From an uncultured Lachnospiraceae bacterium (GTDB taxonomy: Bacteria > Bacillota > Clostridia > Lachnospirales > Lachnospiraceae): a stretch of DNA of 64,000 nucleotides. Positions 15,644-62,929 of this stretch are shown here, one piece after another (position 1 is the first letter of the stretch; each line of letters begins with the position of its first letter). Made by a program: the position numbers and the translations under genes. The notes beneath the pieces are model-generated. The model was not told the origin of the DNA. It ran no database searches and worked only from the letters and a program-made list of their open reading frames with translations. The DNA lies in the NCBI GenBank assembly GCA_947089905.1, contig CAMUMG010000004.1, forward strand, positions 124,001-188,000. Reading direction: 5' to 3'.

Positions 15644-17410
15644 CTAGGCTTGCTTTAATTGTATTTCATATAACTTTTTATAAATTCCATTTTGATGAAG
15701 TAACTCTTGATGAGTTCCACTCTCTCGAATCTTTCCTTTGTGTAAAACAATAATATTATCTGAATGTTGAATAGTAGAAAGTCGATGGGCTACCATAATC
15801 GTAGTTCGTCCTGTCATCAGTTTTTTTAATGCTTCCTCTATCAGCTTTTCCGTTTCTGTATCGATATTAGCTGTTGCTTCATCCATAACTAAAATGGATG
15901 GATCATATGCCAAAGTTCTTGCAAAAGAAAGTAATTGTCTTTGACCTGCCGACAAAGTTGCCCCACGTTCTGTCACTGCTGCCTCATATGTCCCCTCTAA
16001 GTGTTCAATAAAAGAATCTGCATTGACATACTTTGCAGCATCTTTAATTTCTTGATCTGTAATCTCTTCATTACGAAGCCGGATATTACTTTTAATATCT
16101 CCTGTGAAGATAAAAACATCTTGCTGTACTTGTCCAATCGCACCTCTTAACTGGGCTATATCCATAGAACGGATATCGACGCCATCCACTAAAATTCGAC
16201 CTTTCTGAATATCGTAGTATCTTCCAATTAAATTTAAAATAGACGACTTTCCAGCTCCTGTTGCACCGACAAATGCAACCTTTTGTCCCGGCTCAATCAC
16301 AAAACTGACATCTTTTAAGATCCAATCTTCCCCTTGATAGGCAAACCATACATGTTCAAACTCAATTTTTCCTTTTACCTGTGGCAAATAGTTTGGCTGC
16401 TTTGGATTGACAACTGCAGGTTCTTCGTCTAAAATTGTAAAAATCTTCTCTGCAGAAGCCATTGCCGACTGTAATGTTCCAAACTGCTCTGCAAGTTCCT
16501 GAATTGGTTCAAAAAAGGAACTGATATATTGAGTAAATTGATACAATGTTCCAACTGTTATGACACCTTTTAAAACAGAATCTCCTCCAAGTAAAAGTAC
16601 AATAAACATAGCAATAACAGACAACATATAGATAGATGGACGAAAAATTGCAAATACCATCATTTCTCTGTAATTTGCCCGAAATAACTCTTCATTGCGT
16701 TTTGCAAACTCTGCATTTTTTTCTTTTTCTCTTGCAAAAATTTGAATGAGTTTCATTCCGGAGAGATGTTCGGAAAGATAAGTATTAATTGCGGTAATTT
16801 TCGTTCTTGCAATTCGATAAGTTGTACGGGAAATTTTTTTAAATAATATTGTCAACCCTATAATGAAAGGAAGCAATAAAAAAGAAAATAAAGCAATTTT
16901 CACATCTAAAGCAAGCATTACAAAAATCAGTCCAATAATTTTTACAATATTTTTAATCAGTCTTACTAAAATACTGGTATACATTTCATTGAGTGCTTCT
17001 ACATCATTTGTTACCCTTGTCACAATTCGCCCCACTGGTGTAATATCAAAAAAACGAAGGGAAAGTTTGTGAATATGTTCAAAAACCTCCTGACGGATAT
17101 TATAAATGATAGTCTGTCCAGTTAGTTGAAGGATCCATGTCTGCAAAAAGTTACAGACAAAGGATGCCAATAAAACAATTAAATATATTATTGCGATGTT
17201 TCTTACTTCTTGGAACTGAACCTGTGTTGAAAATAAATCTACTACTTTTCCTATCAATTTCGGTCTATACAATTCTAAAGCAGTAATAATAAAGACAAGT
17301 GCAAATGTTTCCGCAAAATAATACCAATACGGTTTGGCATATCTTAATAACCGAAAAAAAACATTTTTATGAACAAAGCGTTGTTCCATCTCGATTTCAC
17401 TGTGTTCCAT
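15644..17410 (-). CDS. ABC exporter half-transporter, consensus ATPase subunit (pair 1)
   Basis: 588 residues: six-helix ABC exporter membrane domain (about 25-310) then the ATPase (about 340-588). Walker A GATGAGKSS, signature LSAGQRQLLSFAR, Walker B ILVMDEATANID with the catalytic Glu and an H-loop AHRLST. With the preceding gene it forms a heterodimeric multidrug-type exporter (BmrCD/LmrCD-like). The ATG at 17410 has AGAGGTG 6 bases upstream. It starts 25 bases after the partner's stop. Confidence 0.9.
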   Translation of the reverse strand: MEHSEIEMEQRFVHKNVFFRLLRYAKPYWYYFAETFALVFIITALELYRPKLIGKVVDLFSTQVQFQEVRNIAIIYLIVLLASFVCNFLQTWILQLTGQTIIYNIRQEVFEHIHKLSLRFFDITPVGRIVTRVTNDVEALNEMYTSILVRLIKNIVKIIGLIFVMLALDVKIALFSFLLLPFIIGLTILFKKISRTTYRIARTKITAINTYLSEHLSGMKLIQIFAREKEKNAEFAKRNEELFRANYREMMVFAIFRPSIYMLSVIAMFIVLLLGGDSVLKGVITVGTLYQFTQYISSFFEPIQELAEQFGTLQSAMASAEKIFTILDEEPAVVNPKQPNYLPQVKGKIEFEHVWFAYQGEDWILKDVSFVIEPGQKVAFVGATGAGKSSILNLIGRYYDIQKGRILVDGVDIRSMDIAQLRGAIGQVQQDVFIFTGDIKSNIRLRNEEITDQEIKDAAKYVNADSFIEHLEGTYEAAVTERGATLSAGQRQLLSFARTLAYDPSILVMDEATANIDTETEKLIEEALKKLMTGRTTIMVAHRLSTIQHSDNIIVLHKGKIRESGTHQELLHQNGIYKKLYEIQLKQA

Positions 17411-17435
17411 GTTAGTCACCTCTTTCCCCATTTTT

Positions 17436-19298
17436 CTAAACTGCCTCTAATTGCTGCTCCAACTGTTGTTGTTCATACATCTTTGCATAGATTCCACCTG
17501 CTTCTAAAAGTTTTGCATGTGTTCCATACTCTGCACATTCTCCCTGTTCTAATACAAGGATATGATCTGCATTTTGTACGGTAGAAATTCGGTGGGCAAT
17601 CATAATTGTAGTTTTTCCCTGACGAATCTGCTTTAAATTCTCTAAAATCTGTTCTTCTGTACTTGTATCAACTGCTGAAAGTGCATCATCTAAAATTAAA
17701 ATTGGAGCATCTTTCATCAATGCTCTTGCAATCGAAATTCTCTGCTTTTGTCCCCCAGATACTGTAACTCCTCTCTCGCCGACTAAAGTTGCATATTGGT
17801 TTGGAAATTCCATAATATTTTCATGTACACAAGAAAGTTTTGCAGCTTTTTGTACTTCTTCTAAATCTCCATAGGCTTTATCTATTTTATTGCTGCGGCG
17901 CATGGCATCTTTCTCTAAAAACTCCTCAATCTGTTCCTTTTTTGGTAAAAACAGATAGTTTTGTTTCTCCTGAGGCAATTCTAATAACTCTCTAACTCCA
18001 AATGCGATATTTGCCTGAATTGTATCGGAAAAAAGAAAATTGTCCTGTGGTACATAAGCAATTTGTTCCCGTAATACGTGCAGAGGAATTTCTCTGATAT
18101 CCCTTCCGTCTAACCGAATCATATTTGGTTCTGTCTGGTACATACGCAGTAACAGATTAGCGATCGCTGTTTTTCCACAGCCTGTCCGCCCTAAAATCGC
18201 AAGAGTCGATCCTTTTTCTATGCTGACAGAAATATTTTTTAATACAGGAGGAAGTGATTTTGAAAACTGAAACGTTAAATTTTCAAAAGAAATTTCTCCG
18301 TCTAGTTTTGTTATAGAATGATCCACTGTTGTCTCATCTTTAATTTCTGGCTGTTGCCGAAAGATTGCTTCAATTCTTCGAAGTGATGCTGCACCCTGAG
18401 AAAAGAATGTAATACTTTCTCCACAGGCAAGCATTGGCCAGACCAGCATAGAAATATATTGATGAAAGGAAATAAAACGTCCAGTTGTAATTTTTCCTTT
18501 CAGAACTAAATTTCCACCATAGATTAAAGCAATTACACTTGAAATTCCAATAATTACATCCATTAATGGCATGACAATCGCTTGTAGTTTTACTACTTTT
18601 AAATTTTTATCCTTATTCTTTTTATTCATCTTTGCAAAAGCAACAATCTCCTTTTGACTTTGTACAAACGCCTTGATAACACGTATACCAGAAATACTCT
18701 CCTGAACTTGATCCGTTAAATCCGAAAATGCTTCTTGTTTTTCACGAAATCTCCGTTCTACCGCTGTTCCATACCAGATTCCACCACCTAAAATAATCAA
18801 CATAGGGATAAGAGCTAACATTGTCATTCCAAAATCAACATATACAATCATTTTAAAAATTACCATAACTGTCATGATAATTGCATCAAATGCTGTAATT
18901 ACTGCTGGTCCAATTGCCATTCGTACTGCATTTAAATCATTTGTAAAGTGTGCCATTAAGTCCCCTGTTTTATGTTCATTATAATATCCCATAGACAGTG
19001 TACTTAAATGTTTAAACATATCTCCTCTTATTTCATATTCAATTTTTCTAGCAGAACCAAAAATAAAATATCTCCATCCAAACCTTCCAAGTGCCATTCC
19101 TGCTCCAGTGAGTAAAATCAGACCTGTACTGTGAAGTACCCCTGAAAAGTCCATTGTGCCATTTTTTAATCCATCTGTAATTTCTCCAGTAAATTGTGGA
19201 ATATATAAACTGATAAGATCCACAAAAAATAAAGTCAAGATTCCAAGCAAATATGGTAGTTTATATCGTTTTATATACCTGCTTAACATAACATCCAA
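17436..19298 (-). CDS. ABC exporter half-transporter, degenerate-site subunit (pair 1)
   Basis: 620 residues, membrane domain then ATPase. Walker A GRTGCGKTA and signature VSGGQKQRISIAR are intact, but Walker B reads ILILDDALSAVD: the catalytic Glu is Asp, the mark of the degenerate site in heterodimeric exporters. An insertion of about 35 residues (ELLELPQEKQNYLFLPKKEQ and on) sits between the Q-loop region and the signature. The start is probably TTG at 19298, with GGAGG 6 bases upstream; ATG at 19289 is the alternative. Substrate unknown; multidrug or peptide export is inferred. Confidence 0.88.
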   Translation of the reverse strand: MDVMLSRYIKRYKLPYLLGILTLFFVDLISLYIPQFTGEITDGLKNGTMDFSGVLHSTGLILLTGAGMALGRFGWRYFIFGSARKIEYEIRGDMFKHLSTLSMGYYNEHKTGDLMAHFTNDLNAVRMAIGPAVITAFDAIIMTVMVIFKMIVYVDFGMTMLALIPMLIILGGGIWYGTAVERRFREKQEAFSDLTDQVQESISGIRVIKAFVQSQKEIVAFAKMNKKNKDKNLKVVKLQAIVMPLMDVIIGISSVIALIYGGNLVLKGKITTGRFISFHQYISMLVWPMLACGESITFFSQGAASLRRIEAIFRQQPEIKDETTVDHSITKLDGEISFENLTFQFSKSLPPVLKNISVSIEKGSTLAILGRTGCGKTAIANLLLRMYQTEPNMIRLDGRDIREIPLHVLREQIAYVPQDNFLFSDTIQANIAFGVRELLELPQEKQNYLFLPKKEQIEEFLEKDAMRRSNKIDKAYGDLEEVQKAAKLSCVHENIMEFPNQYATLVGERGVTVSGGQKQRISIARALMKDAPILILDDALSAVDTSTEEQILENLKQIRQGKTTIMIAHRISTVQNADHILVLEQGECAEYGTHAKLLEAGGIYAKMYEQQQLEQQLEAV

Positions 19299-19372
19299 AA
19301 TCCTCCTCCATTTTCATTATAGTCATTCGTTGTTTCAATCCACTCGCGGCAGTTGTTAATTGTTGAACTTTT

Positions 19373-19401
19373 ATTATGCCGGATTTTTCGATAAATTTCA
19401 A
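19373..19401 (-). promoter_or_regulatory. Promoter of ABC exporter pair 1 with overlapping inverted repeat
   Basis: Minus strand TTGAAA, 17 bases, CATAAT. An inverted repeat with CGATAAA arms (19389-19416) covers the -35, so a repressor may act here; the regulator is not adjacent. Confidence 0.5.
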
Positions 19402-19429
19402 CCTAAATTTTTATCGATTTGTTAATAAA

Positions 19430-19522
19430 GGAGATGCCACATTAAGAAAATTAGATACAAGATACGGTTTAATTCAATATCAATACTATACCTTGTATAT
19501 TCCGTTCTTAATGCGACATCTC
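19430..19522 (-). repeat. Long imperfect hairpin after the chemoreceptor gene
   Basis: Two arms of about 36 bases (starting GGAGATGCCACATTAAGAA and ending with the near-complement TTCTTAATGCGACATCTC) around an 18-20 base loop. Several mismatches become G-U pairs if it is RNA from the minus strand, which points to the chemoreceptor 3' UTR. It lies upstream of the ABC pair 1 promoter. Terminator, stabiliser or a MITE-like element are possible. Confidence 0.55.
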
Positions 19523-19537
19523 TCTAAAACTTTCTTT

Positions 19538-21559
19538 TTATTCTTTTAATTGAAATTTTCCTATTAAAGTATTTAGTGCTGTTGCTTGTGCTGATAATTC
19601 TTCACCTGTTGCTGAAGTTTCCTCGGCAGCAGCAGAATTTCCCTGTACTACTTCTGAAATTTGATCAATTCCCTGCTCTAGTTGTTGAATCGCTTCTAAC
19701 TGTAGTTTAGTCGATTTATTGGTTTGTTCCGCCCCTGTCCTCAGTTCACTGATTCCTTCAATCATTGTCTTTAGAGCATCCGAAGTCTGTTTTGTACTTT
19801 CTCTACCAGTTTCGATTTCTTGAATAGAAGTAGCAATCAAAGTTCTTGTATTTACTGCGGAAGCAGCACTTCCTGCCGCAAGTTTACGGATTTCATTTGC
19901 AACAACAGAAAATCCTTTTCCTGCCTCTCCTGCTCTGGCAGCTTCTATCGAAGCATTTAAAGATAATAAATTGGTCTGAGAAGCAATTTCTTCAATATCA
20001 GAAACAATATCTTCAATCTTTTTGGATGTTTCTGTAATTCTATCCATTGCTATTGTAAGTTCCTGCATTTTTTTACTGCTTGTTTCTGCCTCTTTTACTA
20101 CGTTTAAAGAACATTGTACTGCAATACCACTATCATTTGCATTGGAACGAATCTTCTCTGTAATATCACCAATACTTGCCTGTAATTGTTGTATTGCCCC
20201 CGCCTGCTCTGTTGCACCTTCTGCTAGACTTTGGGCACTTTCTGCAAGCTGTTCTGCACCTATATCTACCTGTCCTGCAGTGCTTTGAATCTGTTTTAAC
20301 GTTTCACTTAAACGCTTTTTAAGTTTATTTGTTGATTGTCTTAAACCAGCAAATTCTCCAACATAAACCTTTTCATTATTAGATTCTACATTAAAATTTC
20401 CTTCTGCCATCTCACTGAGTATCCAATCGGAATCTGTAATAACTGCCTTTAAATTTGTAACAATACTCTCTGTAGCATTTGCTAAAATTTTTGTTTCATC
20501 TTCCTTTGTAATGTTAGGAATCGGTGTTGTTAAATCTCCTTCTGCCAGTTGTTTTAACCGTTCAGAACAATATTTAATTGGCTCTCCAACTCCCTTTCCA
20601 ATCCGAACTGCAACTGCAGCTCCAATACATACTGCAACCATAATAGTAAGGAGAGTAATCAACATACTTGTTATTGTACTACCTGTAAATTCGCTTACAG
20701 GAGCATTAATTGCAACACTCCAGCCATTTGTTCCTTTAATTGGTGCATAGGCAAGAATTTTTTTAGTGCCTTCATATGTATAAATGCCTGTTCCACTTTC
20801 TCCTTGTACCATTTTTTTCTCTAACTGTGCCAATTTTTTTAGAGAAGAATCTGTTTGTGATCTTTTAATTGTATTATCTTGGGCCTCTGCAAAAGAGGGT
20901 GTACTATGGGCAACTGTTGTCCCCTCTGAATTGATAATATAACAACCTCCATGATCACTTATTTTTACTTTTGCTACAATATCATTGAGAAAGGAAGATT
21001 TCGGTGTTAAAAATACTACTCCAGAAACTTTTGAATTTGGAATTCCATTTTGCCAAATAGGAGCAGAAATAATAATGTTAAGTTTTCCTGTTGTTCTTGA
21101 AACTAAAGGATCGGAAATATAACTTTTTCCATTTAGAGATGTTTTAAAATAATCTCTGTCACTGTAATCTGTTTCATCTGTAAGACATTTTCCATCTAAA
21201 TCAATCAGTTTTCCAAACTGCATATCATAATATTGTACCTTTTCATCTATAATTTCTTGTCTTTGTTCTATTGTATAAAATTGATTTGATAGTCTGGCGG
21301 TGCATCCTAACTCCCACACTACATTCACTTGTGATTGTAATTCCATTTCAACTCGTTCTGCTGTTATTTGTGCAGTTTGTATCATTGTCTGTTTTAGAGT
21401 ATCTAATGTACTGCTATAATTCATATACGCAGAAATTCCTCCAACAATACTTAAAGAAATCACAATCACCCAAATCATTCCGACTTGGATTTTCTTTTTG
21501 ATTGAGGTCATATGTATAATACCCATCTTATCCCCCTTTTTTACTTTTTGTGATTTCAC
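19538..21559 (-). CDS. Methyl-accepting chemotaxis protein with dCache sensor
   Basis: 673 residues. A first transmembrane helix (about 27-47), a large periplasmic-type sensor domain (about 48-290, with [30 protein letters not shown], a dCache_1 pattern), a second helix (about 300-322), HAMP, and the signalling domain with the conserved tip [39 protein letters not shown]. It signals to CheA/CheW; the ligand is unknown. The GTG at 21559 has AAGGAGGG 6 bases upstream; ATG at 21526 behind GGGGGA is a serious alternative. It is preceded by an attenuator-like leader. No che genes are in the window. Confidence 0.9.
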
Positions 21560-21590
21560 TTTTTTCCCTCCTTAAATATTTTTTAGATCT

Positions 21591-21639
21591 AAAAAAGACA
21601 GCAAAAGTTAGCCTTTTAAAGTTTCTATCTTTTGCTGTT
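21591..21639 (-). terminator. Intrinsic terminator in the chemoreceptor leader
   Basis: On the minus strand AACAGCAAAAGATAG pairs with CTAACTTTTGCTGTC, followed at once by TTTTTT. It stands between the palindromic promoter at 21686 and the chemoreceptor start at 21559, so transcripts from that promoter must pass it. It can also end the upstream ABC operon. Confidence 0.75.
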
Positions 21640-21649
21640 CTATAATCAA
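21608..21649 (-). CDS. Putative leader peptide, 13 residues
   Basis: TTG start, reads MIIEQQKIETLKG, stop TAA inside the left half of the terminator loop region. An AGGGGGAGGGAGG stretch lies just upstream and can serve as ribosome site. Translation would place a ribosome over the left terminator arm, so it could influence termination. Not proven; a chance ORF is possible. Confidence 0.3.
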   Translation of the reverse strand: MIIEQQKIETLKG

Positions 21650-21678
21650 TTCCTCCCTCCCCCTAAAAAAGTCTTATC

Positions 21679-21700
21679 AACTTGTATTATAATACAAGTT
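21679..21700. promoter_or_regulatory. Perfect 22-bp palindrome, probable operator
   Basis: Centre CTTGTATTATAATACAAG extended by AA/TT. It covers the -10 box of the leader promoter. The shape is like operators of GntR-type regulators, but no such regulator is nearby. Confidence 0.55.
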
Positions 21701-21714
21701 AGAGGAATTGTTAA
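21686..21714 (-). promoter_or_regulatory. Promoter of chemoreceptor leader
   Basis: Minus strand TTAACA, 17 bases, TATAAT, embedded in the 22-bp palindrome; a transcript would start near 21679 and have a leader of about 120 bases. Confidence 0.6.
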
Positions 21715-21724
21715 TATATTTTTT

Positions 21725-23593
21725 TTAATCCAATTCTACTTTTCCTGTATAAAGTTCATAATAACGTCCCTTTAATTTTAATAAATCTTCATGTGTTCCT
21801 CTCTCAATAATTTCTCCATGTTCTAGTACCATAATTGCATTTGCATTTCGTACTGTAGAAAGTCTATGAGCAATGATAAATGTTGTTCTTCCTTTCATCA
21901 GTCGATCCATACCATGTTCAATATGTCTTTCTGTTCTGGTATCTACAGAACTCGTTGCCTCATCTAATACTAAAATAGGTGCCTTTGAAATTGCCGCTCT
22001 AGCAATATTTAATAACTGTCTTTGTCCTTGGCTTAAATTTGCTCCGTCACCTTCTAACATGGTATCATATCCCTGTGCAAGACGCATAATAAAAGAATGT
22101 GCACTGGCTGTTTTAGCTGCTGCTTCTACCTCTTCATCGGTTGCATCTAACCGTCCATATCGAATATTTTCCCGCACTGTACCAGTAAATAAATGAGTAT
22201 CCTGTAATACCATTGCAATATTCTTTCTCAGACTATCTTTTTTAATTTTTTGTAAAGGAATTTCATCTATTGTAATTGTTCCTTCATTAATATCATAAAA
22301 TCGGTTTAATAGATTCGTAATGGTTGTCTTTCCTGCTCCTGTCGAACCTACAAATGCAATTTTTTGTCCCGGTTTTGCATAGAGTGAAATATCTTTTAAA
22401 ATTATCTTTTCTGGATTATAGCCAAAAGTCACATGATCTAATATAACCTTTCCAGAAACATCTTTTAGCTCTATAGTATCTGTTTTATCCTCTGCTTCTG
22501 GTTCTGCGTCCATAATAGCAAATACTCGTTCTGCACCTGCCAATGCTGTAAATATGGTATTTACCTGCATAGAAAGTTCATTGATAGGTCTGGTAAATTG
22601 TCTCGAATAATTTGCAAATACGGTAAGTCCACCGATATCAAATCCTTTGGTAATACATAAAATTCCTCCTACTGTTACAATAAGAGAATAATTGATCTGT
22701 CCTAAATTTCCCATCACCGGTCCCATGATGCCTCCGGCAAACTGTGCACGAATCTGCTGATCTTTTAGTTCATTATTTAATTTATCAAATTCTTTAATAC
22801 ATTTATCCTCATGACAAAATACTTTCACTACTTTTTGTCCTGTTACACTTTCTTCAATATATCCGTTTACTGCTCCTAATGCTGTCTGTTGTCCTACAAA
22901 ATATTTCCTTCCCCGACTGGCAATTCCTCCTCCAACCTTAACGAAAATAGGAACCATAATAATAGTAACAATACTCAGTGTTATATTCATATATAACATC
23001 ATACATAACGTTCCAATTACGGTAAGTGTTCCAGAAAACAACTGAACAATTGTATTATTGAGCATTTCACCAACTGCATCTACATCATTTGTAAATCGAC
23101 TCATTAATTCTCCATGATTATGAGTATCAAAAAATCGAACTGGAAGGCTTTGCATCTTTTCAAACAATTCATCTCTTATCTTTTGTAAAGCCTTTTGGGA
23201 AACTTCAATCATAATCCTCTGTTGTAAATATTGTGTGAAAACTCCCACTGCATAGATCAATGCCATGATAAGTAGTTTTCCTATTAGATCCTTTAATAAA
23301 TCAGATAAAGTGTCTGATTTATTGACACTTTGGGCATAGGTGCGAAAACTATCTCCCAATCCATTAATAATTGGTCTAAGCATATAAGAACCTAACAAGG
23401 TAGAAATCGAAGAAAGTGCCACACAGATAAAAACAATCACTATCTTTCCCGTATCTTTTTTTAAATATCCCATTAATCGCTGTAATGTTTTCTTTGCATC
23501 TTTTGGCTTTGCTCCAGGACCTTTCATTCTTCCTCCTGGTCCTGCTGGTCCTATCTTTGGCTGTGTTGTCTGAGATTTTGATTTCGATTCCAT
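21725..23593 (-). CDS. ABC exporter half-transporter, consensus ATPase subunit (pair 2)
   Basis: 622 residues. An unusual Gly/Pro/Lys-rich cytoplasmic N-terminus (KIGPAGPGGRMKGPGAKPKD) precedes the six-helix exporter domain and the ATPase. Walker A GSTGAGKTT, signature LSQGQRQLLNIAR, Walker B ILVLDEATSSVD with catalytic Glu. Its ATG overlaps the partner's TAA (TAATG), so translation is coupled. Third gene of the MarR operon; it probably exports a drug or peptide sensed by the MarR protein. Confidence 0.9.
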   Translation of the reverse strand: MESKSKSQTTQPKIGPAGPGGRMKGPGAKPKDAKKTLQRLMGYLKKDTGKIVIVFICVALSSISTLLGSYMLRPIINGLGDSFRTYAQSVNKSDTLSDLLKDLIGKLLIMALIYAVGVFTQYLQQRIMIEVSQKALQKIRDELFEKMQSLPVRFFDTHNHGELMSRFTNDVDAVGEMLNNTIVQLFSGTLTVIGTLCMMLYMNITLSIVTIIMVPIFVKVGGGIASRGRKYFVGQQTALGAVNGYIEESVTGQKVVKVFCHEDKCIKEFDKLNNELKDQQIRAQFAGGIMGPVMGNLGQINYSLIVTVGGILCITKGFDIGGLTVFANYSRQFTRPINELSMQVNTIFTALAGAERVFAIMDAEPEAEDKTDTIELKDVSGKVILDHVTFGYNPEKIILKDISLYAKPGQKIAFVGSTGAGKTTITNLLNRFYDINEGTITIDEIPLQKIKKDSLRKNIAMVLQDTHLFTGTVRENIRYGRLDATDEEVEAAAKTASAHSFIMRLAQGYDTMLEGDGANLSQGQRQLLNIARAAISKAPILVLDEATSSVDTRTERHIEHGMDRLMKGRTTFIIAHRLSTVRNANAIMVLEHGEIIERGTHEDLLKLKGRYYELYTGKVELD

Positions 23594-25335
23594 TATGCAG
23601 ACACCTCCTTCGATTTTTCTATCTGTGAAGAGTAAATTTCCTGATAGGTTTGACAGCTTTCCATTAACTGTTCATGCTTTCCAAATCCTACAATTTTCCC
23701 TTCCTCAAGTACCAAAATCCTATCTGCATCTTTGACAGAGGAGATTCTTTGTGCAATAACAAATTTTGTAGTCTCTTTTAACTCTTTTTGAAAACACTCT
23801 CGAATTTTTGCTTCTGTTGCCGTATCTACAGCACTTGTACTATCATCTAAAATTAAAATCTTTGGTTTTTTCAACAGTGCTCTGGCAATACAAAGTCTTT
23901 GTTTTTGTCCTCCAGAAACATTGACACCTCCCTGTCCTAGCTCTGTTTCATAACCGTCGGTAAACCCTGTTACAAATCCGTCCGCCTGTGCATTTTCAGC
24001 TGCCTTTCGAATCTGTTCTTCAGAAGCATTTTCATCGCCCCATTTTAAGTTATCTGTAATTGTACCAGAAAATAGAACATTTTTTTGAAGTACCATTCCA
24101 ACCCCATCTCTTAAATGGCGCAGTGAATATTCTTTTACATTAATTCCATCTACCAAAACTTCTCCCTCTGAAGCATCATATAACCTTGGAATTAATTGTA
24201 CTAAACTGCTTTTTCCACTTCCAGTAGAACCAATAATACCAATTAATTCTCCCGGCTGTACTAAAAAATTAATATCTTCCAAAACTTTCTCTTCCCGCTC
24301 TTTATAATACTTAAAAGAAACGTGACGAAATTCTACACTTCCTTTTTCTACTTTTCTGTCCTTTTTTGTAGCACTTTCATCACTTAAATCCAACGGTTCA
24401 TCTAAAACTTCTCCAATTCGCTTTGCAGAGGCTACAGCACGGGAACTTTGCAGTAAAATCATAGCCACCATCATAAGGGACATTAAAATCTGTACAATAT
24501 ATGTTGTAAATGCTGTCAGTTCTGCAACATCCATTGTTCCAATAATAATTTGTTTTCCTCCAAACCATACAACTGCTAATGTCGTAATATTCATTGCCAG
24601 TGCCATTAATGGCATATTAAAAATTACAATCTTAAATGCACTCATTCCAGTATCTTTTAAGTCCTGGTTTGCTTTAGAAAACTTTTTTATCTCATGATTT
24701 CCACGGACAAACGATTTTACAACTCGAACATTAGTAAGATTTTCTTGAATTGCTGAGTTTACACTATCAATTTTTAACTGCATCTTTTCAAACCTTGGAA
24801 ATGCTGTATGTATCAAACCATATAGTGCCGCCGCTAAAATTGGGATCACCACTGCTATTACTGCTGCCAGACTAGAATTGATTGTCAGTGCCATAATTAA
24901 AGCTCCAATCAACATTCCCGGAGCACGTAACATCATAATTAATGCCATACGGATAACATTTTGAAGTTGTGTAATATCGTTTGTTAAACGAGTTACAAGT
25001 GAACCTGTACTAAAATGATCAATATTAGCAAATGAAAACTCTTGAACTTTGCAATATACATCTTTTCTCAGTCCCGCTGCAAATCCCGCGGATGCTTTTG
25101 CACTAAAATAATTTCCTCCTACTCCTCCAAACATCATAATAGCAGCAGTTACTATCATAACCAGTCCAATCATCAAAACATAGCTGCTTTTTGCCCCATC
25201 TGATTCAATATGTTTGATTGTCAGATTCATAAAATACGGCAGTAAAACTTCACCTAAAACCTCTGTTAGCATTAAAATCGGCCCAACAATAAAATAGAGT
25301 AAGTTCGCCCGAATATACTTTACATAACGCTTCAT
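23593..25335 (-). CDS. ABC exporter half-transporter, degenerate-site subunit (pair 2)
   Basis: 580 residues: six helices then ATPase. Walker A GSTGSGKSS and signature VSGGQKQRLCIAR are intact; Walker B is ILILDDSTSAVD with Asp at the catalytic Glu position, and the H-loop reads AQRISS with Gln-Arg after Ala instead of His. It is therefore the non-catalytic half of a heterodimeric exporter with the next gene. Start ATG at 25335 with a GGAGATTACT stretch upstream, 13 bases after the marR stop. Confidence 0.9.
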   Translation of the reverse strand: MKRYVKYIRANLLYFIVGPILMLTEVLGEVLLPYFMNLTIKHIESDGAKSSYVLMIGLVMIVTAAIMMFGGVGGNYFSAKASAGFAAGLRKDVYCKVQEFSFANIDHFSTGSLVTRLTNDITQLQNVIRMALIMMLRAPGMLIGALIMALTINSSLAAVIAVVIPILAAALYGLIHTAFPRFEKMQLKIDSVNSAIQENLTNVRVVKSFVRGNHEIKKFSKANQDLKDTGMSAFKIVIFNMPLMALAMNITTLAVVWFGGKQIIIGTMDVAELTAFTTYIVQILMSLMMVAMILLQSSRAVASAKRIGEVLDEPLDLSDESATKKDRKVEKGSVEFRHVSFKYYKEREEKVLEDINFLVQPGELIGIIGSTGSGKSSLVQLIPRLYDASEGEVLVDGINVKEYSLRHLRDGVGMVLQKNVLFSGTITDNLKWGDENASEEQIRKAAENAQADGFVTGFTDGYETELGQGGVNVSGGQKQRLCIARALLKKPKILILDDSTSAVDTATEAKIRECFQKELKETTKFVIAQRISSVKDADRILVLEEGKIVGFGKHEQLMESCQTYQEIYSSQIEKSKEVSA

Positions 25336-25348
25336 AGTAATCTCCTTT

Positions 25349-25789
25349 CTAATGTTTTATTTCAATATTTTCCCTCATTCTATGGATAAAATCGGTAAAA
25401 GCAGAAAGTTCTTCTAAACTAAATCCTGAAAATAACTGCTCATTTATCTGATCAAAAATCTCATGGCTCTGCTTTACAATTTCAGCCCCCTTTGGGGTTA
25501 AGACTACTTTATGATATCTATTATCTGTTCCATCTACTGCTTTTTCAATATAACCTCCCTTCTCTAACTTTTTTAATGATACTGCAACCGACGGAGTTGT
25601 AATTTTTTCTGCCTGTGCCATTTCTGTCTGGGAACATCCTTCATGGTTTGATAAATACATCAATAAATGATGTTGTGCACGAAATACTCCTGTTTGATTT
25701 AACCTGCTTTCCACCATTCGGCAATGCTGTCTGTTTAAATCTATAAACTCTTTCACTGCTACTTTTCGTTCTTCCTTAGTCGTTTCCAT
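25349..25789 (-). CDS. MarR family transcriptional regulator of ABC pair 2
   Basis: 146 residues. Winged helix with GCSQTEMAQAEKITTPSVAVSLKKLEKGGYIEKAVDGTDNRYHKVVLTPKGAEIV, the MarR DNA-binding core; helices at both ends form the dimer interface. As first gene of the marR-ABC-ABC operon it most likely represses its own promoter, whose -10 and start region lie in a 47-base palindrome, until a ligand binds. ATG at 25789 with GGAGAG 6 bases upstream is preferred over GTG at 25795. Confidence 0.88.
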   Translation of the reverse strand: METTKEERKVAVKEFIDLNRQHCRMVESRLNQTGVFRAQHHLLMYLSNHEGCSQTEMAQAEKITTPSVAVSLKKLEKGGYIEKAVDGTDNRYHKVVLTPKGAEIVKQSHEIFDQINEQLFSGFSLEELSAFTDFIHRMRENIEIKH

Positions 25790-25810
25790 ACTCACCTCTC
25801 CAATTTAAAA

Positions 25811-25857
25811 AATCAAATAGTTAATCAGCTAACAATTAGCTAATTAACTATTTGATT
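25811..25857. promoter_or_regulatory. MarR operator palindrome
   Basis: Two 22-base arms differing at one position, separated by CAA. Each arm contains ATAGTTAAT and AGCTAA, typical of MarR-type sites. It overlaps the -10 and the transcription start of the marR promoter, ideal for autorepression. Confidence 0.75.
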
Positions 25858-25883
25858 ATACAATAAACAATTTTAAAATGCAA
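25855..25883 (-). promoter_or_regulatory. marR-ABC operon promoter
   Basis: Minus strand TTGCAT, 17 bases, TATAAT; the -10 overlaps the edge of the operator palindrome. Confidence 0.7.
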
Positions 25884-25898
25884 GAATTTTTTTAAAAA

Positions 25899-31185: not shown

Positions 31186-31382
31186 TGGTTGAAACCCCAA
31201 AATGCCGGCTCTTGTATTTTGACTCCTAGCAAAGCTAGGTGGGTGACCGCACGTAAGGTTCTGTCTTCCACTGCACAATCGGAGGCCTGACATAGACTTA
31301 CAAATATAGGAATCCCGTTTAAAGTAAATGTAGGTTCAAAATGACAAGAGTTATCGTACACCCCAGGAATTTCATTTCATCT
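31186..31382 (-). ncRNA. ssrS: Structured RNA, probable 6S RNA
   Basis: A protein-free stretch behind a strong minus promoter. The predicted RNA of about 195 bases closes on itself like 6S RNA: TGAAATTCC near the 5' end pairs with GGGGTTTCA near the 3' end, then CTCTTGTCATTTTGA pairs with TCAAAATACAAGAG, around a central region with a CCTAGC-TTT-GCTAGG hairpin. Length and rod shape fit 6S RNA, which binds sigma-A RNA polymerase. Assignment is by architecture and general resemblance to clostridial 6S RNAs, not by a covariance search. Confidence 0.65.
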
Positions 31383-62639: not shown

Positions 62640-62929
62640 TTTTAAAATGAAATAAAAAAGGCTCTTCATCCTCTAAGGACGAAGAACCGTGGTACCACCT
62701 TACTTTACAGCTATAACTGCTGCCTTTTTCTGCTTCTTATAAAGCATCCATCTATAACGGGATTTCCCGTCATCCTCTATAAAGCTCTATCGCTGTTTAA
62801 GGATGATGCTCGAAAGCTACCTTCCATAAGCACTTACTTCAAACGGTTTTACAGCCTGTGAACCATTCTCTCTGTGAAGGCTACTTATGTAATCCTCTTT
62901 CTCACTGCATTTTCTTTATTTATTCTATT
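62640..62929 (-). promoter_or_regulatory. T-box riboswitch of valS
   Basis: The minus strand has the T-box core AAGGTGGTACCACGG (62686-62700), followed by the terminator GGTTCTTCGTCC / GGATGAAGAGCC with TTTTTT (62655-62689). Stem I (about 62790-62880) shows the specifier region GAAGTAAGTGC, where GTA is a valine codon. Uncharged tRNA-Val should pair and stabilise the antiterminator. Confidence 0.93.

Follow-up and report, generated by a model that had tools for sequence, protein, structure and literature searches.

A predicted intrinsic terminator between a palindromic promoter and a chemoreceptor gene in a Lachnospiraceae bacterium

In an uncultured bacterium of the Lachnospiraceae, a chemoreceptor gene is separated from the ABC exporter gene upstream of it by a short leader in which a promoter, a ribosome site, a short reading frame and a hairpin with a T tract follow closely upon one another. 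The question raised by this locus is how transcription proceeds through the hairpin into the chemoreceptor gene, and whether its passage is regulated by translation of the short frame or set by more ordinary means.

The locus and its surroundings

The leader extends from 21714 to 21560 on the minus strand of the window, the whole 64,000 nt stretch of DNA that was analysed, and is bordered by two genes:

19538..21559, minus strand: chemoreceptor gene (dCache_1, HAMP, MCPsignal; 673 aa), with a GTG start
21725..23593, minus strand: ABC exporter subunit gene upstream, the last gene of a MarR-ABC-ABC operon, with its stop at 21725

The chemoreceptor, one among about 28 in the source bacterium, starts with the GTG at 21559, although an alternative ATG start at 21525 has a ribosome site of its own. 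The gene is flanked by pairs of ABC exporter genes (window 15644-25795), with MarR-ABC-ABC before it and ABC-ABC behind. In six other genomes, orthologues of the ABC genes with 64-72% identity are found without a chemoreceptor gene behind them.

Directly behind the chemoreceptor gene is a strongly palindromic inverted repeat of ~100 nt (window 19425-19530, minus strand; -39.9 kcal/mol). It is one copy of a dispersed repeat family, for which the genome has 13 matches, 9-10 of them near full length, at 70-86% identity; most copies are sited at gene ends, and the outer arms vary among copies whilst their pairing is kept. The repeat has no match in Rfam, and the family looks like a miniature inverted-repeat element. 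Elsewhere in the window, on the minus strand, Rfam matches correspond to the T-box leader of the valyl-tRNA synthetase gene, valS (62672-62914), and to a 6S RNA (31190-31372).

The promoter and its palindrome

The sequence-only reading had described a TTAACA-N17-TATAAT promoter with a perfect 22-bp palindrome over its -10 element, and both were confirmed in the sequence:

21686..21714, minus strand: sigma-A type promoter, TTAACA-17-TATAAT, from a consensus scan; 11 nt past the ABC transporter stop codon
21679..21700, no strand: perfect 22-bp palindrome AACTTGTATTATAATACAAGTT over the -10 element, at about -22 to -1; operator-like

The TTAACA element (21714-21709) is separated by a 17-nt spacer from TATAAT (21691-21686). 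With 11 of 12 consensus matches, this was the top of 23 promoter-like sites in the 6 kb scanned, and its position predicts an RNA start near 21678. A flagellar sigma promoter was not found by pattern before any of the chemoreceptor genes of this genome that were examined.

No other palindrome in the 64-kb window is as long, and none of 20 first-order randomised windows contained one of equal length. Its inner 8 bp, ATTATAAT, arise automatically when AT precedes a TATAAT -10 element; hence only the outer 7 bp of either half are informative. Repressor-operator promoters of the TetR, GntR and MarR types have a palindrome over the -10 element. The arrangement here is alike, a perfect 22-bp palindrome overlapping the core promoter, and differs from them in that there is a single genomic site and that the site is not assigned to a family. 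A length beyond chance and the usual position of an operator together suggest a repressor role for the palindrome. A search of 396 other genomes of the family, allowing one mismatch, found no copy of its inner 20 bp. In its own genome no second site occurs at up to three mismatches, and no regulator could be matched to it, so the palindrome is a putative operator only; its regulator may act at this one site. The palindrome was also considered as an operator for the MarR protein of the upstream operon, and this was rejected as a related palindrome is absent from the MarR promoter.

The leader of the MarR-ABC-ABC operon (window 25796-25898, minus strand) has a similar plan of its own, with a promoter (TTGCAT-17-TATAAT) straight past the previous gene, a long inverted repeat (AATCAAATAGTTAATTAGCTAA-TTG-TTAGCTGATTAACTATTTGATT) ending in T6, and a ribosome site soon after. 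The expected start lies inside the 5' arm of this repeat, such that the full hairpin would be formed by read-through RNA only; the repeat could be the MarR operator and the NAD synthase terminator at once.

The hairpin

Downstream of the promoter lie the following structures:

21591..21638, minus strand: intrinsic-terminator hairpin followed by C and T6, with arms 21638-21625 and 21611-21598
21579..21596, no strand: perfect 18-bp palindrome TTTTTTAGATCTAAAAAA, made up of the T tract together with the A tract behind it

The hairpin has 13 of 14 pairs formed (-13.2 kcal/mol) and the C and T6 occupy 21597-21591; the T tract thus follows a stable hairpin at once, as is characteristic of intrinsic terminators. 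Only one of 400 dinucleotide shuffles of the leader yielded a hairpin plus T tract as good, and the energy is similar to those of several 3' terminators of the window (-10.8 to -15.7 kcal/mol). A pattern scan overlooked the structure owing to its loop limit of 8 nt. With regard to the 18-bp palindrome, about 0.55 perfect palindromes of at least 18 bp are expected per window. The sequence CTTTTTTAG recurs 74 bp upstream of it, in the same leader.

The chemoreceptor ribosome site, AAGGAGGG (21573-21566), begins 17 nt past the T tract, in agreement with the 15-20 bases originally estimated between TTTTTT and this site. A promoter between the terminator and the chemoreceptor gene was considered and rejected, there being neither the room for one nor a match to one, which bears out the earlier statement that space for it is lacking. 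Hence transcription must read through the hairpin to reach the chemoreceptor gene, whether it comes from the ABC operon or begins at the local promoter. The hairpin is also the sole terminator-like structure past the ABC stop codon, and a hairpin soon after the ABC stop is present in some ABC orthologues of other genera (L120 and L122). The simpler of the two original proposals, that the hairpin merely ends the ABC operon and that read-through feeds the chemoreceptor gene, is rated at least as likely as the attenuator that was put forward beside it.

The leader frame and the case for attenuation

That proposal of an attenuator relied on a strong ribosome site and a 13-codon ORF ending in the hairpin region. 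Both are present, the start codon of the frame being TTG:

21651..21664, minus strand: leader ribosome site AGGGGGAGGGAGGA, forming a duplex of -15.6 kcal/mol with the 16S tail
21608..21649, minus strand: 13-codon leader frame, (M)IIEQQKIETLKG, with a TTG start and a stop codon within the hairpin's 3' arm; perhaps incidental

Judged by the energy of pairing to the 16S tail, this ribosome site ranks among the strongest in the window. The frame reads TTG ATT ATA GAA CAG CAA AAG ATA GAA ACT TTA AAA GGC TAA, and the peptide has no evident sensor codons, no run of the same residue beyond pairs and no recognised stalling motif. When the leader was shuffled 1000 times with the ribosome site kept, 133 of the shuffles (13%) contained an ORF of at least 10 codons; a short leader frame is therefore within chance expectation once the ribosome site is given. 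The frame may be there by chance, or else act as a minor modulator.

Were the leader an attenuator, a ribosome on the 13-codon frame would cover the hairpin, with translation permitting read-through and its loss resulting in termination, as in pyrBI, or with a drug-stalled ribosome permitting read-through, as in BmrB. The geometry makes such direct blocking feasible, as the frame covers the 5' arm of the hairpin and ends in the 3' arm, which places the arms inside the frame or the footprint of a terminating ribosome; the strength of the leader ribosome site is also favourable. A classic attenuator requires a competing antiterminator, or a device bringing the ribosome near the polymerase. However, no competing antiterminator was found: the leader without the terminator (3' arm masked) folds with only -3.0 kcal/mol, against -17.2 kcal/mol with it, and the upstream part of the leader pairs with the 5' arm of the hairpin at merely -1.9 kcal/mol. 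This leaves the ribosome directly blocking the hairpin as the remaining option. Such is the case in the pyrBI attenuator of Escherichia coli, where the leader frame overlaps the terminator and an antiterminator is not needed. The two leaders are alike in this respect and differ in that polymerase pausing in the pyrBI leader draws the ribosome near; the early T6 tract of the leader studied here (21670-21665) precedes the ribosome site, making a pausing role of the pyrBI type impossible for that tract.

The position of the terminator also counts against the attenuator, since only 53 nt separate the start codon from the T tract, a distance at which ribosomes have rarely caught up (PMC4824070). 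In the E. coli experiments of Li et al., a terminator 30 bp past the AUG lost about 10% of its efficiency through translation, an effect of this size being attributed to the first ribosome being unlikely to catch up so early, and pyrBI was cited as an exception relying on pausing (PMC4824070). Hence a terminator so near the start of a short ORF would not be expected to respond to translation of that ORF, and initiation at TTG is a further point against the proposal.

In Bacillus subtilis, attenuation in the bmrB leader controls the heterodimeric ABC exporter operon bmrBCD (PMC4191407), and the neighbours of the chemoreceptor gene are likewise paired ABC exporter genes. Further likenesses are the short frame over an intrinsic terminator, the leader's own promoter and the Firmicute host; however, the bmrB leader is 162 nt long, has a predicted terminator, antiterminator and anti-antiterminator, and has the exporter itself as its target (PMC4191407), whereas the chemoreceptor leader has no competing structure, a frame of only 13 codons and a chemoreceptor behind it.

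Leaders of another kind, also with terminators, are known before chemoreceptor genes. The c-di-GMP-I riboswitch Bc1, with intrinsic terminators, often precedes such genes in the Bacillus cereus group (PMC11218506), and the suggestion that this plan is rarely reported for a chemoreceptor should be treated with corresponding caution. Both place intrinsic terminators in a chemoreceptor leader; the difference is that the leader described here lacks the aptamer and has about 40 nt before its hairpin. A search of Rfam for a riboswitch or aptamer in this leader returned only chance-level matches far below gathering scores, though it did detect the valS T-box elsewhere in the window. Among the papers searched, none joined a chemoreceptor with leader-peptide transcription attenuation, the single match concerning an expression system.

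Comparison across genomes

In 60 related genomes, searches with the leader DNA found only chance-level pieces. The closest chemoreceptor orthologues are 28-46% identical, and hence the comparison is with distant relatives, no congener being among them. In the 18 such orthologues with a readable leader, both the palindrome and a hairpin with a T tract near the start are absent. Conservation of the ORF, hairpin and palindrome had been proposed as a check, and none of them is kept in these distant orthologues, a result that speaks for long range only. The absence of the leader from all the orthologues examined is a further point against attenuation by the leader peptide. A 23-mer of the leader had two matches in viral contigs, both of which lie within the same phage-type coding gene and were put down to chance.

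Within the source genome, the comparison covered 27 stretches around chemoreceptor genes, the window and genome searches. None of the 26 other chemoreceptor genes with readable upstream sequence shares the leader or has the palindrome, and three of them have hairpin candidates that are weaker or lie in coding sequence. Upstream of one chemoreceptor gene, L112 (G000:C3:160900-164300), at 46 nt from the start, is a T-tract hairpin of -23 kcal/mol whose 5' arm, AGGGGAGAAAGGGGAG, is rich in purines; this looks like the end of the preceding gene.

Taken together, the layout of an attenuator is confirmed, and the regulated leader-peptide switch is not supported, given the lack of an antiterminator, the lack of sensor codons, the chance-level ORF and the absence of the leader from the orthologues and other chemoreceptor genes examined. 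What speaks for attenuation is the layout, and the peptide part depends on a frame that chance readily gives; we think such a switch unlikely.

Transcript origin and a small RNA

A second pairing could form between the promoter region and the leader ribosome site:

21647..21710, minus strand: inverted repeat CAATTCCTC / GAGGAATTG, with arms 21710-21702 and 21655-21647

The first arm, CAATTCCTC, is the sequence around -35, and GAGGAATTG overlaps the leader ribosome site and contains the TTG. As RNA from the local promoter starts past the first arm, its ribosome site is left free; RNA reading through from the ABC operon is predicted to fold into a three-way junction, one arm of which is the palindrome. 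Such a leader might filter transcripts by origin, in that the leader ribosome site and start would be buried in ABC read-through RNA, which would be terminated, whilst local RNA would be translated and so undergo less termination. The ribosome site has a mean unpaired probability of 0.08 in read-through RNA and of 0.42-0.70 in local RNA, none of 500 shuffles of the upstream arm reached such low access, and the fold z-score of the read-through RNA is -4.38, all of which accord with a filter. However, 13 of 500 random natural 49-mers of the window gave access equally low, a coincidence of about 3%, and the inverted repeat was noticed post hoc; for these reasons we accord the filter low weight. 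It also demands fast leader translation, which the 53-nt distance from start to T tract disfavours. Filtering by origin is regarded as very improbable, and slightly less credence still is given to the -35 element doubling as part of a one-way insulator, passing local RNA and holding back ABC read-through RNA.

Alternatively, the promoter and terminator might bound a small RNA gene, giving an RNA of 85-90 nt or a messenger for the 13-residue peptide, with the chemoreceptor gene transcribed by read-through. A complete promoter, about 88 nt (21678-21591) and a terminator do form such a unit; against this, there is no match in Rfam, no copy in the 60 relatives and no independent sign of function, and we consider a small RNA gene to be quite unlikely.

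Discussion

The leader contains a promoter, a palindrome over its -10 element, a hairpin and a T tract, and no competing structure is predicted within it. The explanation to which we give somewhat better than even weight is that a repressor acts at the palindrome and that the hairpin serves as a fixed partial brake, also ending the ABC transcript. The chemoreceptor gene would then be transcribed from a sigma-A promoter of its own, immediately downstream of the ABC operon, with a repressor probably binding the 22-bp palindrome and setting the frequency of transcription starts. After about 40 nt of transcript, RNA polymerase would reach the intrinsic terminator. Judging by the place and strength of this terminator, we infer that it would halt a fixed share of the transcripts from the local promoter, in a partial and unregulated manner, and most of the read-through from the ABC operon; the remaining transcripts would proceed into the chemoreceptor gene. 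The leader would thus probably combine ordinary control of the promoter with a partial brake. Had the brake no use, it would be expected to be lost from its place between promoter and gene, and its persistence hints at some use. The fixed brake leaves the strong ribosome site before the TTG frame without a clear purpose.

A short frame over a terminator is, by itself, no evidence for a leader-peptide attenuator. Were the hairpin nevertheless a regulated switch, the level of one chemoreceptor would be tied to translation or to the neighbouring exporter, which would be unusual. The locus offers a clear, testable case of a terminator between a promoter and its gene.
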